Source: Bacteroidia bacterium
GTDB lineage: Bacteria > Bacteroidota > Bacteroidia > Bacteroidales > JAPLDU01
Direction of reading: 5' to 3'
Length of the DNA: 55,411 nt
NCBI GenBank assembly: GCA_026391255.1
Contig: JAPLDU010000024.1
Coordinates: 1 to 55,411 of the forward strand
Position numbers and translations under genes: made by a program. The notes below the pieces were generated by a model, which saw nothing but the letters and a program-made list of their open reading frames with translations, was not told where the DNA came from and ran no database searches. Positions within the stretch are counted from its first letter, which is position 1. Each line of letters begins with the position of its first letter. Positions 33,770-43,384 of the stretch are shown here, one piece after another.

Positions 33770-34070
33770 ATAGTGATGAGTGATGAAGTGATGAAGTGAT
33801 GGAGTGATGAAGTGATGAAGTGATGAAGTGATGAATGATGAGTGATGAGTGATGAAATGATTGAGAGACGAAGGGACGAAGAGACGAAGAGACGAAGGGA
33901 GACGCTATATAACAAAGGGATTATTTTTCACATCATCAAATTTCATATTCCCGCATTTTCACATTCCCACATTATCACATTATCACATTATCACATTACC
34001 ACATTACCACATTACCACATTACCACATTACCACATTACTACATTACCACATTATCACATTATCGCATTA
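33770..34070. repeat. GTGATGAAG and CACATTATC nonamer arrays
   Basis: Positions 33776-33858 are about nine copies of the 9 bp unit GTGATGAAG and variants. Positions 33958-34078 are about 13 copies of the 9 bp unit CACATTATC or CACATTACC. The last units supply the final codons and stop of the response regulator gene on the minus strand (stop at 34071-34073). Between them lie GACGAAGAGACGAAGG words and 60 unremarkable bases. Confidence 0.88.
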
Positions 34071-34802
34071 TCACATTAATTTCTTCTTTCCAAGATAATC
34101 GTAAAAGCTCTTTTTGTATGAATCGCTGATGGGAATTAGCTTATCGGCTATTTTGATCCGGTTGCGTTCAATGCTTTCAATCTTTTCCAGTGAAACAATA
34201 AATGATTTGTGCACACGGCAAAATCGGTCTTCCGGCAGTATTTCCTCCATTCTTTTAAAATTCTGAAGAGTCATAATACGCCTTGTATTGGTTACCATCC
34301 GCAGATAGTCGCCCATACCTTCGATATAGAGAATATCTGCAAACTTTACTTTTTCAAGCCGGAATTCCGTTTTAATGAAGAAGAAATCATCGCGCGGATT
34401 GGCAATGGTAATTTCCCTGGTCTCACTTTTAAACATTCGTTCAGTCTGCAGTTTTTCGTAAACTTTATCCACCGCTTTTACGAAACGCTCGAATGATATA
34501 GGTTTCAGCAGGTAGTCGACAATGTCAAGTTCATATCCTTCCACAGCATAATTGGGATATGCTGTAGTAAAGATCACTAATGGTTTTTGTTTCAGCACTT
34601 TAATAAGCTGTATACCAGTAAGATCGTTCATCTGAATATCGAGGAACAACAAATCTACCTGGCTTTTCTTCAGAAAATCAAGTGTTTCAATTCCATTGCT
34701 GAAGTTGCTGAGCATATTCAGAAAGGGAACTTTCTGGATGTAATCTTTGATCAGGTCGAGGGCCAGAGGCTCGTCGTCCACGGCAATACAATTGATATAC
34801 AT
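34071..34802 (-). CDS. LytTR family response regulator
   Basis: A 243-residue two-component regulator. The receiver domain (1-120) has Asp9-Asp10 and the phospho-acceptor Asp55 in LLFLDIQMND, and the switch regions TTAYPNYAVEG and YLLKPISFERF. The LytTR DNA-binding domain (about 140-238) contains ILYIEGMGDYLRMV and RVHKSFIVSLEKI. Its ATG immediately follows the stop of the histidine kinase gene (TAAATG), so they are co-expressed partners. The C-terminal residues are encoded by the adjacent CACATTATC repeat. Confidence 0.94.
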   Translation of the reverse strand: MYINCIAVDDEPLALDLIKDYIQKVPFLNMLSNFSNGIETLDFLKKSQVDLLFLDIQMNDLTGIQLIKVLKQKPLVIFTTAYPNYAVEGYELDIVDYLLKPISFERFVKAVDKVYEKLQTERMFKSETREITIANPRDDFFFIKTEFRLEKVKFADILYIEGMGDYLRMVTNTRRIMTLQNFKRMEEILPEDRFCRVHKSFIVSLEKIESIERNRIKIADKLIPISDSYKKSFYDYLGKKKLM

Positions 34803-35843: not shown

Positions 35844-36079
35844 ATCTGCGGATAATTTCTTTCAGATGTACCTGAATAAATTACATAATCGATCACCTGT
35901 AATAGTCAAACGGTGACAATCATGTTTCAATCGATGATGCCTAAAATGGTGAATGGTGATCCGCCGGAGGCGGAGTGAATGGTGAATGGTGAATAGTGAA
36001 TAGTGAAAGGAGAATGGTGACTTATGACGTGTGACGTGTGACGTGTGACTTACGACTCTGAACTCTGAACTAATATGAT
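35844..36079. repeat. GGTGAATAGTGAAT and GACGTGT word tract
   Basis: Between about 35940 and 36070 are repeated words AATGGTGAATGGTGA, AATAGTGAATAGTGAA and GTGACGTGTGACGTGTGAC, interrupted by a palindrome CCGCC-GGA-GGCGG at 35961-35973. The first 95 bases show nothing recognisable. There is no gene. Confidence 0.78.
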
Positions 36080-38062
36080 TTACTTGCCGAATTCATACTT
36101 AACCACGAACCGGTAGAATCTGCCGGGCATAGGGTATCCCTGTGTTATCTGGTAAGAAGTGTTAAACAGGTTTTCGATGACAAACTGTGTTGTAATGGTT
36201 GATTTTCCAAATATCAGCTTTTTACCGGCTGTCAGGTTGCTGATGGAATATGCGGGGAGTGAAAATTCATCATCAGAAGAAGTATATCGCAGACCGGTAT
36301 AACCGAGTGAATACCTGAAGAAATATCCTTTAATTGAACATTCTGCCGACCCGCCTGCCGTGTTTTTGGGTACATAGGGTAACTGTTTTCCACCGGAATT
36401 ATCATTGATGTCCGATGATTTCCTGTTGGTAGTAATGGTGAGGTTATAATTCCCCTGAAATTCGGTCTGAAGTCTGCCGGAATTGAATTTCAAAGAAAAT
36501 GTCGATTCCATTCCTTTACGTTCTACCTGCATGATATTTTCAGGGAACCACCTACCAAGGGAATCAGGATGCCACATAACCCAATTGCTGATCAGGGAAT
36601 AGTAACAGGTCAACTCTGCCGACCATTCGAAAATACGTCCCGGATTTTGTCTGAACTGTATTCCCATTTCGCCTGAGCATCCTTTTTCGGGTTTCAGGTG
36701 GGGATTGCCATAGGAGTAACCATCATTTTTCCAATACAGGTCATTTAAGGTAGGCGCATGGTAATTTCTGGAGAAATTTGTTTTCAGTATCAGATCATAA
36801 TCCTCCAGTAGTCTGTAATCAATACCAATTGACGGAATCAGAGGAACGAGGTTCTGATCGGTCATCTCCTGTTTAATAAATGCTGAGATACTGATGCGAT
36901 GACCAATTTTCTTATTCAGTCCGGCTGATAACGACAGGTTCTGCCTGTGCTTCAGCGCATCAAAATTATTTGTTTCCACCTGGTGGTAATCAAAATCAGC
37001 CCCGAAAATAAATGTAGTTCCGGGTGCAGGAGTATAGTTCGTTTCTAAACATTCGTTCAGCGTGATCACCTTGTTTTTGGAATTGATGGCAGAGGCCGAA
37101 TCTTTGAAATTACGATAATTCATGTAATCATCCAGGAATGCCGATCTCAGGGTAACTTCGGTTTTCTCACCAAAAGCTTTATATTCAACCACACTCCTGA
37201 AATAATCTTCATCCTGCTTTTCAAGAATGGAAGGTGGTATTTGCTGGTCTTTCTGCTGGTACCATAACCTGGCAGTGATGAAATTATCATTTTTTATCCT
37301 GGCATAAAACTCCTGTATTACACCGTCATAAGAGAATTGTGCATTTTTATTTTCGTGAACCGGCGAAGACTCATCACCGGCTATTTCATGGTAGCTGAAG
37401 TCATTGGCAGAATTACCACGACTTAACCTAGTTTTCATCTGAAAATTCCTGTTCCCGGTTCCGATACTGAATGCGGAATTGTAAGTATTAAAACTTGCGA
37501 TCCCTTCAGTAGCATTGATACTTAATTTATTATTCCAGTCGGGCAGATTTAAGATTGAAATGGAGCCGCCAAGAGCGCCGCTGTTATTGCATAGTGAACT
37601 ACCTCCATGGTAAACAAGTACTTCATCGATGAACATGGCAGGTATTATCGAAAAATCGACCTGCCCGAGCATAGGAGAATTCACATTTACACCATTCCAC
37701 AATACCTGGGTATGAGCCGGGCCGGCGCCGCGGAATGAAGCAGTGGCAATGCCACCATTTCCAAATGATTTAATATTCAATGAAGTATGCTCTGCCAATA
37801 TACCGGATAACAGTAAAGTCTGGTTCATTTTCATGATAGTTGAATCTATCAGCTTATATTTTAAACCGGTGATATCTTTTATACCCTTTTCAGTCACGGT
37901 GATCTCATCCATTTCAATACTACCGGCGGATTGTTGGGCAGAACAAAAACCAATGAAGAGGGGAAAAATTATTAATGTATTGATAAAGAAAATAATACCT
38001 CGGGAAAATACTATTGAAATATTAATTTGACTGATAAAACTGATTAGGCGCTTAGGAGACAT
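36080..38062 (-). CDS. TonB-dependent receptor, BtuB-like
   Basis: A 660-residue outer membrane receptor. The N-terminus has a signal-like hydrophobic region up to about residue 42 (SAQQ). The plug domain covers about 50-170 (MNQTLLLSGILAEHTSLNIKS, SFRGAGPAHTQVLWNGVNV split here), and the rest is a beta-barrel with the typical final aromatic strand FYRFVVKYEFGK. The compact size and upstream cobalamin riboswitch suggest it imports vitamin B12 or another corrinoid. It lies 271 bases downstream of the small T9SS-tailed gene on the same strand, with two family B repeats in the gap. A start within the first 15 residues other than 38062 is possible. Confidence 0.9.
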   Translation of the reverse strand: MSPKRLISFISQINISIVFSRGIIFFINTLIIFPLFIGFCSAQQSAGSIEMDEITVTEKGIKDITGLKYKLIDSTIMKMNQTLLLSGILAEHTSLNIKSFGNGGIATASFRGAGPAHTQVLWNGVNVNSPMLGQVDFSIIPAMFIDEVLVYHGGSSLCNNSGALGGSISILNLPDWNNKLSINATEGIASFNTYNSAFSIGTGNRNFQMKTRLSRGNSANDFSYHEIAGDESSPVHENKNAQFSYDGVIQEFYARIKNDNFITARLWYQQKDQQIPPSILEKQDEDYFRSVVEYKAFGEKTEVTLRSAFLDDYMNYRNFKDSASAINSKNKVITLNECLETNYTPAPGTTFIFGADFDYHQVETNNFDALKHRQNLSLSAGLNKKIGHRISISAFIKQEMTDQNLVPLIPSIGIDYRLLEDYDLILKTNFSRNYHAPTLNDLYWKNDGYSYGNPHLKPEKGCSGEMGIQFRQNPGRIFEWSAELTCYYSLISNWVMWHPDSLGRWFPENIMQVERKGMESTFSLKFNSGRLQTEFQGNYNLTITTNRKSSDINDNSGGKQLPYVPKNTAGGSAECSIKGYFFRYSLGYTGLRYTSSDDEFSLPAYSISNLTAGKKLIFGKSTITTQFVIENLFNTSYQITQGYPMPGRFYRFVVKYEFGK

Positions 38063-38080
38063 AACTTACCAACATATTGT
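38044..38080 (+). repeat. Partial family B repeat
   Basis: Starts TTAGGCGCTTAGGAGACATA and continues ACTTACCAACATATTG, after which it diverges into AAATCGTAAATCGTC words. It matches only the left half of the family B element. Confidence 0.65.
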
Positions 38081-38160
38081 TTGTTTTTAAATCGTAAATC
38101 GTCATTCGTAAATCGTAAATTCTTTTACCCGAAGGGCTTTTTTCTGATGTTAAAAAATTT

Positions 38161-38237
38161 AGTTGCTTAAGACATCAAACTTACCAACATGTTGTCGCTA
38201 ATCTAATTCCCGTGAAACGGATTTAATTTTCAAATTT
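38161..38237 (+). repeat. Dispersed repeat family B, copy 3
   Basis: It has AGTTGCTTAAGACATCAAA, CTTACCAACATGTTGTCG, CTAATTCCCGTGAAACGG and a TTTTCAAATTTG tail, nearly identical to the copies at 8826 and 27543. It sits between the small T9SS-tailed gene and the receptor gene. Confidence 0.82.
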
Positions 38238-38333
38238 GCACATTTTCAAATTTTCAAATTAATTTAGTTCTTATTCAGGTTAATCCTGAAAAATATCCCC
38301 GGGGATACATTTCCGGAAAAAATGGGAGTAAAA

Positions 38334-38729
38334 TCAATCAACAATGTTTATTCTTTTACGGGTTATGGTATTTCCCTGTTCAATTTCAAGAATATATACA
38401 CCGATTCGGAATTTCCCGGCAGATATATTCAGTTCAATCGTTTTCGCAGGATGGAATTCTTTGTAAAATATTTTATTCCCGATCACATCAAGAACTTTTA
38501 ATTTAATGATACCATGTTCATCATAATCAGTGAATGTAATGCTAAGATCCTGTCCCAGTTGAACAGGGTTAGGATTAATAGAATAATTCAATTCATCATG
38601 AAATACAGGAATATCCAGATTCAGGATTTTAATTTCACCGAAATATGTGAAAATATCCGCAGCACCTGCAGGATGAATTATAAAGAGTGTAAATAAAAAG
38701 GTCAGGTATGTAAAAAAACATCTTCTCAT
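38334..38729 (-). CDS. Small secreted protein consisting mostly of a T9SS-type sorting domain, B12 controlled
   Basis: A 131-residue exported protein. Signal peptide about 1-23 ends GAADI. Residues about 47-131 have the layout of a T9SS type A sorting domain: YSINPNPVQLGQDLSITF, KVLDVIGNKIFYKEF, GVYILEIEQGN and the final TRKRINIVD. Only about 25 residues lie between signal and tail, so there is little room for another domain. It is the first gene after a cobalamin riboswitch and precedes the BtuB-like receptor on the same strand. Its expression is therefore likely B12-repressed and its role connected to corrinoid capture at the cell surface, but no function is known. Confidence 0.8.
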   Translation of the reverse strand: MRRCFFTYLTFLFTLFIIHPAGAADIFTYFGEIKILNLDIPVFHDELNYSINPNPVQLGQDLSITFTDYDEHGIIKLKVLDVIGNKIFYKEFHPAKTIELNISAGKFRIGVYILEIEQGNTITRKRINIVD

Positions 38730-38787
38730 TTTAACTTATTAAATCAGACCTGCACCCGGATGCAATTACCGGACATAAACAATGACT

Positions 38788-38855
38788 AAAAAAAGCTGCA
38801 GGGAAATTGTTCAGAGCTTAAGCTTTAAATCCCGAAAACTTAAGAAACAGCTTTT
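38788..38855 (-). terminator. Riboswitch expression platform, terminator-like hairpin
   Basis: On the minus strand AAAAGCTG (38855-38848) directly follows the aptamer and pairs with CAGCTTTT (38798-38791). The run of seven T residues at 38794-38788 follows, giving an intrinsic-terminator-like end. A smaller CTTAAG/CTTAAG stem lies in the loop. The ATG it would control is at 38729. Because the 5' arm touches the last conserved aptamer bases, ligand binding could switch its formation; that switch is inferred. Confidence 0.55.
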
Positions 38856-39022
38856 AATGGCAGGTCTTCTGACTTTCTCTTTTCATTTTTGCCTTCCCAT
38901 TCCATTAATTAAGAACAGTGGCTTTGGAAAAACTACATCAACGAGATCACAGCAGCGGGCACTGTTCAGGTATTTCACCTGATTCCCTTTTCATCCCGGA
39001 ATATTCCCGGGAAACCATTTGA
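38855..39022 (-). promoter_or_regulatory. Cobalamin riboswitch aptamer
   Basis: Read on the minus strand the conserved landmarks occur in the right order: GGTTTCCCGGG near the 5' end, AAAAGGGAATC (38991-38981), GGTGAAATACC (38979-38969), the B12-box-like GCCCGCTGCTGTG (38960-38948) and the 3' end AGTCAGAAGACCTGCC (38874-38859). This is the class of adenosyl/methyl-cobalamin aptamers that repress transport genes when B12 is plentiful. It precedes the small T9SS-tailed gene and the BtuB-like receptor. Confidence 0.92.
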
Positions 39023-39153
39023 GGCAAAGATAAAATATTTCGTTTAAATTGTAATAATTTTCAGTTAATTTCGGCATATGACAAAATTGTAATTCGTAAG
39101 ACATTAAGCAATAGCGAATTGTCAAATATCAATAATAGTCTTGATTGTCATAA

Positions 39154-40978: not shown

Positions 40979-43321
40979 TCATTCCACCTGGATCATTCGC
41001 GTAATTTTTCCGCCGGCTGCCATGAGTGTCACAAAGTACGTCCCTGCACTGTAATGAGTTGCATCCAATATTACAGAATGAAGTCCGGGAATTTGTTCTT
41101 CACTAACTAAGACAGCAATTCTTTCACCAGTAATATTCCTGATTTCAAGGTCAACTTCTGTTTTAAAGGGAATGTAGTACCGTATTTCGGTCTGTTTGCT
41201 GAATGGGTTGGGATTATTCTGGAATAAATAAATTCCTTTTGATCCTGATAATTCATCAGCTTCATTAGTTATCAAAGTATGTGCTGTTGCCTGGCAACCC
41301 TTTGCATCGGTAATGGTCACATAATAAATTCCATAAGTCAGGATGCTGACATTCCGGGTAGTTGCGCCCATTGACCAGTGAAAGGAATAAGGAGGCGTTC
41401 CGCCTGAAACGCTCAGGGATGCTGAACCATAACCCGACTGGCCGATATTTTCCGGTTCAATGGTGCATGATAATTCGACAGGTTCACTGATTGTGACAGT
41501 TACATGATATTCACAAAGATCGTTCGAAACCGAAACTGAATAATTACCGGCAGACAACCCGTTAATATCTTTATCAGTCGCCCCGTTGCTCCATAAATAC
41601 TGAACTGTATCAGCAGGATTCAAAAGACTCAGGTGGATGCTGCCATCATTTGCACCGGCACAACTCACATTTTCAACAGTGTAATCGACAACAGGAGCAG
41701 GATTGACAATAGTCACAGAGTCAACTGTCAGTAGGTAGCCATTTAGTGTGTTTGTCAGATAATATTTACCATATGGCGGAACAGTGACCTGTGGCCCGTT
41801 ACCGATCGGAATAGTATTCAGACTGTCTGCATACCAGGTTAGCACTGAACTGACAGGGATATATCTCGTGGTTTCGTTCGTAGCTGTCCAGACATTATTA
41901 TTGCATAAAGGATTGGCAAGAACGGCATAATTCCCATATAAATTCTGTATGCCCAATACTCCCCGTCCAAGGTTCCATGCCAGGCAGACCGGTATATCAA
42001 CAAGATTGTTCTCAATAATGTTTGTTGTTTCATACAGAACGATCTGAAATTTGCCATAATTTGATGTGCAACCGACCAAAAAACTATTATACGAAACTAC
42101 GAGTTTGCGGATTGGTGCTGTACCAACAGTCTGGTAGAAAATGTAACCTGAATTTAACCAGTCTTTCCACGGTCCCATGATACAGTTTTTTGGAGTACCG
42201 GGACCTGTATTAGGAATAGTGGTGGTCTGCCAGGGATCATAATTTCCTGAGCCCGGCGCCCCGCTGAATCCTATCCATCCGTTGGAACCTATATAAAACT
42301 GCGAATAGACACTATCAAAAAAACTGAAATCAAAACCAATGGGATAAGGACCTCCGACTACATCATCCTCATTGATACCGGCATTTGTCCCTCCATAGGA
42401 AAACGAATTGTCTAAAGGAAGTTGCGCCTGGACAAAGTAAAATATACTGGAATTATTGCAGGCCGCGCTCAGGGTGACGGGTTGATGAATGCATGCTCCG
42501 GCGCTGTCGGGATTAATGATATCAATTCCTGCCAGGGTAATGGTAATCGATGCCGAAGTCGGAATATTACAATTGACGCTGCCGGTTACAGTCACGGTAT
42601 ATGTTCCGGGTACGGTAATAATTATGGATGGTATGTCTTCGCCATCCGACCACAGATATGAATTAAATGAACCGTTTACCGAAAGAGCAACAGCGCCGGG
42701 AACGCAAATTACTGAGGAAGGAGAGGCATCAATGACAGGTGTGTAAATTATATGAAAAATGACATGCTTTACATCTTCAGTGAGTATGCCGCAACCGTTT
42801 GTTGCAGTCACCGTAACATAAACTGCACCCGGTACTGCCGATGTTATTGAAATGACCTGAGAAGTATCACCAGTTGACCACAGATAATTGCTGAAACCAG
42901 AAGAAGCTGTACAAATTATTGTGTCACCAAGACATGTGCTGGAAGCGGTCAGTGTGATCAGCACAGTATCACTTCCATTGCTGTAAACGGGCCAGCAAGC
43001 CTGACCAATCAGTCCAAGCGCGTCGGTAATCGTCACACAATAATTGCCTGCTGTATCAAGGCCAGATAAATCCTCAGTTGTAATCCCGTTATTCCAGAGA
43101 TAAAAATATGGAGGCGTTCCACCGGAAACAGTCAGATCAATTGCCCCCGTATTTGTCCCGGGACAAACAACATCAGTTACCACCGCAGAATAAACCAATC
43201 CCCGTGCAGTAATCGACTGTTCTTCATATGAATTATAATTCTGTAGTCGCTCAAGATTTGTCTGTGAAAACACAGTAATTTGCCATAATAAACATAACAC
43301 TGAAAAATATAATGTTTTCAT
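40979..43321 (-). CDS. SprB-repeat secreted protein with T9SS sorting domain
   Basis: About 780 residues from ATG 43321 (an upstream in-frame start at 43384 would place 21 residues before the signal peptide). Signal peptide MKTLYFSVLCLLWQITVFSQ. It carries several SprB/PKD-like modules with the pattern SGGTPPYFYLWNNG, SGGTPPYSFHWSMG and SCAGANDGSIHLSL, Gly/Pro/Tyr-rich and typical of gliding or adhesion proteins of Bacteroidota. A central stretch with SNGWIGFSGAPG resembles a lectin-like module. The last ~80 residues (NNPNPFSKQTEIRYYIP ... MIQVE) are a T9SS type A tail. It is probably a cell-surface adhesin. Confidence 0.9.
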   Translation of the reverse strand: MKTLYFSVLCLLWQITVFSQTNLERLQNYNSYEEQSITARGLVYSAVVTDVVCPGTNTGAIDLTVSGGTPPYFYLWNNGITTEDLSGLDTAGNYCVTITDALGLIGQACWPVYSNGSDTVLITLTASSTCLGDTIICTASSGFSNYLWSTGDTSQVISITSAVPGAVYVTVTATNGCGILTEDVKHVIFHIIYTPVIDASPSSVICVPGAVALSVNGSFNSYLWSDGEDIPSIIITVPGTYTVTVTGSVNCNIPTSASITITLAGIDIINPDSAGACIHQPVTLSAACNNSSIFYFVQAQLPLDNSFSYGGTNAGINEDDVVGGPYPIGFDFSFFDSVYSQFYIGSNGWIGFSGAPGSGNYDPWQTTTIPNTGPGTPKNCIMGPWKDWLNSGYIFYQTVGTAPIRKLVVSYNSFLVGCTSNYGKFQIVLYETTNIIENNLVDIPVCLAWNLGRGVLGIQNLYGNYAVLANPLCNNNVWTATNETTRYIPVSSVLTWYADSLNTIPIGNGPQVTVPPYGKYYLTNTLNGYLLTVDSVTIVNPAPVVDYTVENVSCAGANDGSIHLSLLNPADTVQYLWSNGATDKDINGLSAGNYSVSVSNDLCEYHVTVTISEPVELSCTIEPENIGQSGYGSASLSVSGGTPPYSFHWSMGATTRNVSILTYGIYYVTITDAKGCQATAHTLITNEADELSGSKGIYLFQNNPNPFSKQTEIRYYIPFKTEVDLEIRNITGERIAVLVSEEQIPGLHSVILDATHYSAGTYFVTLMAAGGKITRMIQVE

Positions 43322-43384
43322 GGTGAATTTATTAGATTTATACCTATTTTCAAAAAGACGTAATAATCGACAAAAAGTACCCAT

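Follow-up and report, generated by a model that had tools for sequence, protein, structure and literature searches.

The cobalamin riboswitch family represses the genes downstream once cobalamin is bound. Such B12 repression has been described in B. thetaiotaomicron (in the available parts of PMC8941943), and riboswitch-controlled BtuB loci encode the surface-exposed proteins BtuJ (DUF4465), BtuG (DUF5074 family), and BtuH, which carry lipoprotein anchors in the available text of PMC12751083, PMC13398666, and PMC8941943; DUF4465 is BtuJ, a B12-binding family, and not BtuH (same parts of PMC12751083 and PMC13398666). Type A proteins of the type IX secretion system (T9SS; PF18962, TIGR04183) usually carry a cargo domain. 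Two described examples are small: Fjoh_0547 of F. johnsoniae is a 112-aa CTD protein for which secretion is reported also in sprA and porV mutants (as quoted in the available text of PMC7712824), and PorA of Porphyromonas gingivalis is a 246-aa CTD protein with a FimH-like N domain and a role other than that of enzyme or adhesin cargo, whose homologues are, in the same text, reported only in Porphyromonas. Some CTDs stay on after secretion (available text of PMC11285876).

In the window (the whole 55,411-nt stretch of DNA analysed here), a full, high-scoring RF00174 riboswitch precedes a BtuB-type gene, an order found in 42 of the 61 riboswitch neighbourhoods compared, but unlike at the usual RF00174 loci the first gene codes for a tail-only T9SS protein, and the platform lacks a convincing terminator. 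The riboswitch, the BtuB-type receptor, and the T9SS domain all belong to established types; modestly new is the placing of a lone sorting tail after a B12 switch. In the open-licence literature we found neither B12-controlled lone tails nor T9SS-tailed BtuJ-type proteins, and no paper pairing DUF4465 with type IX secretion. The features of the locus are as follows.

38842..39034, minus strand: cobalamin riboswitch aptamer, RF00174 (cmscan)
39025..39032, minus strand: TATCTTTG, matching the Bacteroidota −7 promoter box TAnnTTTG, at the aptamer's 5′ edge
38791..38855 (about), minus strand: possible expression-platform hairpin, weak, followed by 7 T (folding)
38334..38729, minus strand: mini T9SS protein, 131 aa (ORF, PF18962/TIGR04183, and model), with a signal peptide at ~1–23 (by inspection), a spacer at ~24–50, and a type A sorting domain at 51–127/131
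38063..38333, minus strand: 271-nt gap between mini-protein and receptor, holding a repeat copy and a promoter-like box
36080..38062, minus strand: TonB-dependent receptor, 660 aa, of the Bacteroidota BtuB-type clade (PF07715, plug, and PF00593, barrel)

The mini-protein shares with type A proteins a complete C-terminal domain, folded like 8glk_D and 8qb1_A, but has only ~27 residues ahead of it. In length and make-up it is similar to Fjoh_0547, a likeness drawn by description only, and the available text mentions no B12 link for that protein; unlike PorA it has no FimH-like domain, for which ~27 residues leave no room. Where BtuJ, BtuG, and BtuH have lipoprotein anchors it has a T9SS tail, and a Pfam scan found no DUF4465, DUF5074, or BtuH-like domain in it. 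In the contrast with the BtuG and BtuH lipoproteins drawn in the preliminary description of this DNA, BtuJ should be named too.

The aptamer scores 116.9 bits against a gathering threshold of 31.5, with the model complete (1–189; cmscan), and this match at 39034–38842 on the minus strand, where its landmarks had been noticed from the letters alone, is the single cobalamin riboswitch match in the genome (4.08 Mb in 161 contigs, 97.5% complete). The aptamer and the mini-protein ORF are both confirmed; the interval first proposed for them, 38334–39022, ends 12 nt before the aptamer's 5′ end and omits the receptor. TAnnTTTG is given as the sigma-A consensus in Bacteroidota in the available text of PMC9723704, which also describes a riboswitch preceding a TonB transporter and mentions T9SS elsewhere. 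The box occurs between −60 and +20 relative to the start of the aptamer in 54 of the 61 riboswitch loci, while a window of equal size lying further upstream has it in 2 of 61; judged from this motif position, the transcription start is very probably at the aptamer's 5′ edge. The hairpin at ~38855–38791 is long and imperfect (MFE −16.7 kcal/mol, z −0.91 against shuffles), and a terminator scan of the minus strand between the aptamer and the mini-protein ORF returned none; as the scan is empty and the hairpin no better than shuffled sequence, a terminator in the expression platform is not supported, and nor is the terminator-like stem that had been placed beside the aptamer.

Both curated tail models match the mini-protein with scores that barely exceed their cut-offs: PF18962 on residues 51–127 with 29.3 bits (cut-off 27), and TIGR04183 with 24.0 bits (cut-off 23). 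An AlphaFold2 model from an 18-row alignment (mean pLDDT 81.3) places seven strands at residues 48–130, with a domain pLDDT of ~90, preceded by a hydrophobic helix at residues 2–17 that is joined, by eye, by a cleavage-like site near residue 23; residues 27–37 have pLDDT <50. With a signal peptide ending near residue 23, the cargo would thus amount to ~27 residues, modelled with low confidence. In Foldseek, 8glk_D, the NucA sorting domain bound to T9SS, ranks 4th (E 8.5e-4, TM 0.79 on target, 27% identity), and the mirolase domain 8qb1_A ranks 17th, amid many generic Ig-like folds. The sorting-type tail proposed from the letters is therefore borne out by family models and by the structure prediction that had been suggested as a check. 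Pfam found only PF18962 over cut-off in the mini-protein, with DUF3244 sub-threshold, and the mini-protein on its own, searched against PDB sequences, gave two chance matches and no relative beyond chance. Its frame has a codon score of 0.28 per codon, above that of the five other frames and within the 0.15–0.35 spanned by the window ORFs of >300 codons on which the score was trained. Given a complete sorting domain (two curated models and the fold) and normal codon usage, the ORF is very probably a genuine gene, coding for a full sorting domain almost without cargo.

The receptor has plug and barrel, and its best NCBIfam model is TonB-B12 (TIGR01779), at 94.9 bits, far under the cut-off of 599.7. 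Two riboswitch/BtuG-linked Bacteroidota receptors also miss this equivalog cut-off (70.9 and 99.1 bits), and one of the two, a Bacteroides faecalis receptor adjoining a riboswitch and a BtuG gene, scores below the window receptor on the same model; since the cut-off is unmet by the window receptor and the two comparison receptors alike, we use the label BtuB-type. In a midpoint-rooted tree of 120 sequences, some genomes being present twice, the window receptor is nested within riboswitch/BtuG-linked BtuB-type receptors, with local supports, outwards, of 0.842 (7 tips), 0.965 (9), 0.394 (15, weak), and 0.89 (90), which agrees with its earlier description as BtuB-like. It is followed by a histidine kinase and a LytTR regulator, with no BtuG gene directly behind.

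The 271 nt between mini-protein and receptor hold another TAnnTTTG, at 38183, which may be a promoter box in its own right, and an imperfect 37-nt direct repeat (78%; 38044–38080 and 38159–38195), one copy of which, 38044–38080, overlaps the receptor's start codon; the repeat is a possible trace of duplication in the leader. Gaps between T9SS-tail and BtuB-type genes are ≤50 nt in 40 of 43 cases, a count that includes the window and has some genomes twice (duplicates here and in the tree are, e.g., L119/L143, L120/L142, and L076/L145). Given the long gap and the second promoter-like box, against mostly ≤50 nt elsewhere, co-transcription of mini-protein and receptor is uncertain.

A receptor-only search of genome contigs for relatives found none; a three-row receptor alignment as query yielded 182 relatives, of which 80 were kept (identity ≤40%), and no sister species of the window genome was found in these receptor-based searches. 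Ninety of the 99 genomes searched, the window's own included, have a cobalamin riboswitch. The 61 neighbourhoods are the window and 60 others, one site each, drawn from the 89 relatives with a riboswitch, and 29 riboswitch genomes as well as further sites of the 60 sampled genomes lie outside this set; the labels BtuB, BtuG, DUF4465, and tail in the survey come from purpose-built profiles. Among the 42 neighbourhoods in which a BtuB-type gene lies downstream on the same strand, 27 have no same-strand gene of >100 codons between riboswitch and BtuB, 14 have one or more T9SS-tail genes there, and 32 have a BtuG-type gene soon after the BtuB-type gene. The riboswitch is often followed, in this order, by a variable T9SS-tailed protein, a T9SS-tailed protein of ~325 aa, BtuB, and BtuG.

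DUF4465 genes occur in the riboswitch–BtuB stretch of six of the 14 tail-bearing loci by the purpose-built profile, and Pfam confirms the family in two of five first genes tested, plus L161. T9SS-tailed DUF4465 (BtuJ-type) proteins stand as first gene after the riboswitch at L046:599-1546, L066:622-1587, and L161:2275-3999 (Pfam-confirmed), with further ones called by the purpose-built profile in L064, L076, L163, and L166. The ~325-aa family lies directly before BtuB and is conserved (L097:2313-3296, L105:2885-3856, and 21 further alignment rows); the tail is the sole Pfam family in the two members scanned (L097 and L105), and its model is mostly beta (pLDDT 83.6). Derivation of this family from BtuH is borderline at best and was set aside (hhalign probability 25%, TM on query ≤0.31 among the 50 Foldseek rows listed), as was the BtuG label that the purpose-built profile gave to the first genes of L097 and L105, where Pfam shows the tail only.

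Nineteen of the 22 tail proteins between riboswitch and BtuB have at least 321 residues; the three small ones are that of the window (131 aa) and those of L068 (130 aa) and L100 (145 aa). The latter two adjoin BtuB directly and score 17.1 and 23.2 bits with PF18962 (cut-off 27), the L068 protein reaching 27.8 bits with TIGR04183 (cut-off 23). Both loci (L068:1580-4044; L100 1888-3790, a reversed locus) run from a DUF4465-type gene through a sulfatase-modifying-factor-like protein (PF03781 confirmed in L068) and the small GGxGxGYA-type tail to BtuB.

With DUF4465/BtuJ-type and other T9SS-tailed proteins between riboswitch and BtuB, surface capture via T9SS-tailed proteins is likely a theme of these loci, and to that extent the idea of the preliminary description, that the mini-protein might capture corrinoids at the surface or serve the receptor as an adaptor, fits the type of locus. 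Its position in a B12 locus, the DUF4465 genes in the equivalent stretch of tail-bearing loci, and the small tails directly before BtuB in L068 and L100 all speak for this idea. For the mini-protein itself we nevertheless consider it very improbable: a spacer of this length and low model confidence offers little room for a B12 site, no family is seen beyond the tail and the sub-threshold DUF3244, and the closest relatives found are lone-tail proteins in loci that have no riboswitch.

The best non-self match to the mini-protein in the 99 genomes is a 125-aa signal-plus-tail protein (E 9.6e-11) that adjoins a gyrB/parE-type gene, in a genome whose one riboswitch match is on a different contig. 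A three-row profile run on 393 genomes had matches in 136 at 1e-8, and among the matches listed we read 19 lone-tail loci, with flanks of ~1.5 kb or less on each side. By phmmer, 10 of the 19 have a kdsB-like gene and seven a GSCFA gene (13 have either), three have a gyrB/parE-type gene, and three have none of these; PF02348, PF08885, and the gyrase-B families were each confirmed on one locus. An Rfam scan of the 19 loci found no family over threshold, cobalamin riboswitch included. Lone tails of 112–125 aa lie beside the kdsB-like gene in L226, L228, L231, L233, L236, L239, L240, L241, L244, and L250, and the kdsB-linked loci span seven families of the order; since some T9SS cargo is anchored to LPS (available text of PMC11285876), a KDO/LPS link of these proteins is suggestive, by analogy.

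A model of the three gyrB/parE-linked lone tails scores the mini-protein at 44.7 bits, against 25.2 for the best own-genome tail and 23.2 for the top-scoring ORF among the others in the B12 neighbourhoods, a partial control made up of the locus tails and 40 of the at least 150 own-genome tails, and one biased towards the lone-tail relatives in that these were found with the mini-protein as bait. The margin over the tails is large and is located in the sorting domain (residues 46–131). The three gyrB/parE-linked proteins come from one genus, in another family of the order; their pairwise NG86 dN/dS values (for these relatives, not the window ORF) are 0.20, 0.24, and 0.16 at dS 0.8–1.1, with YN00 giving lower values for two of the pairs, and by these substitution patterns they are under purifying selection. 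A model of 14 lone tails of the kdsB type, which is the more widespread one, including L235 and L243 that have neither marker gene in view, does not set the mini-protein apart, giving it 30.5 bits, under many ordinary tails.

Lone tails occur in at least two further settings, kdsB/GSCFA and gyrB/parE, with no riboswitch, as would also be expected if the mini-protein gene were a chance passenger, an unrelated lone-tail gene that landed between riboswitch and receptor and came under B12 control incidentally, and the repeat and the long gap do adjoin the gene. The arrangement is, however, not unique, small tails standing directly before BtuB in L068 and L100, though as weak tail matches, and we regard a chance passenger as improbable.

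The main rival to the reading we prefer is that the ORF is a functionless remnant of a T9SS-tailed capture protein, BtuJ-type or of the ~325-aa family, that lost its middle and kept signal peptide and tail in frame, in a B12 locus in course of being stripped down. The nearest receptor-tree relative with T9SS genes at its locus, genome G089 (L076 and L145), has in the slot a DUF4465-tail gene (purpose-built profile) and a ~325-aa tail gene, in favour of a remnant. The window's genome, for its part, has no DUF4465 match and no body of the ~325-aa family, the matches listed starting at profile position 214 or later of 329 (150 of 245 candidates scored), and the 271-nt gap with its imperfect repeat suggests rearrangement. 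Against this, the ORF keeps its frame, start, hydrophobic N-terminus, and tail, and has normal codon usage; no remnant of capture domains turned up in the gap in any of the six frames; and L081 has a 254-nt gap despite full genes. The tail, moreover, is nearest to those of lone-tail proteins and shows no special kinship with the ~325-aa family, whose tails give it 27.2 bits where the other tails of these loci give 33.7 bits. We judge a remnant doubtful, though it has to be kept in view.

We tentatively prefer, with confidence somewhat short of even, to read the mini-protein as a B12-controlled T9SS protein that is intact but without cargo, its role being accessory to the surface or to T9SS and not in corrinoid binding. 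Transcription would start at the aptamer edge, and at low cellular cobalamin the riboswitch would let the downstream genes through; the mini-protein would be exported by Sec, its sorting domain would fold and be handled by T9SS, and the product would end up on the cell surface or in the medium, as a ~27-residue peptide or as the domain alone. The mini-protein would belong to a scattered class of lone tails, not to the corrinoid binders. Cobamides would be imported by the BtuB-type receptor, whose partners, a BtuG-family lipoprotein and a BtuFCD-like transporter, would be encoded elsewhere in the genome. The genome does contain one BtuG-family (DUF5074) gene, unlinked (G000:C157), and, away from the window locus, a cluster of FecCD permease, ABC ATPase, and periplasmic-binding protein; three B12-binding domains score over cut-off, one of them within MetH.

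The same genome has at least 150 T9SS sorting tails (150 of 397 candidates scored, the window ORF itself not among these 150), and among 55 matches there is no second intact lone-tail gene. With the mini-protein gene the only one of its kind among these matches, a general housekeeping role is not obvious. Own-genome tail frames of 121 and 119 aa were rejected as lone-tail genes, since they look like C-terminal pieces behind frame breaks. Tail frames at G000:C66 64935-65165 and G000:C73 5491-5718 (L137 and L255) look like C-terminal pieces of broken longer genes.

A variant in which the cargo-less domain, under cobalamin control, serves uptake, by competing for or priming T9SS or anchoring, or by docking to the receptor in place of lost BtuJ-type proteins, strikes us as decidedly improbable; if its priming or competition form were true, surface sorting would be retuned when B12 is scarce. 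More broadly, if the lone tail acts in T9SS control or in the uptake of B12, surface sorting would be tied to cofactor status in a way that is new. The locus suggests that the gene right after a B12 switch need not encode a capture protein or a transporter, and it draws attention to lone T9SS sorting tails, which recur in fixed neighbourhoods and are under selection where measured. T9SS-tailed BtuJ-type B12 binders in environmental Bacteroidota likewise deserve attention, the literature, in its available parts, being mostly on gut lipoproteins.

Elsewhere in the window, an 801-aa protein with SprB repeats (PF13573) and a T9SS tail is encoded at 40979–43384 on the minus strand, upstream of the riboswitch and on the same strand. 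Short simple-sequence repeats with GTGAATGGTGAATAGTGA-like units occupy the intergenic stretch 35940–36060, and HITTLPHY-type repeats are seen in the translations of the ORFs at 33842–34129 and 33861–34079.
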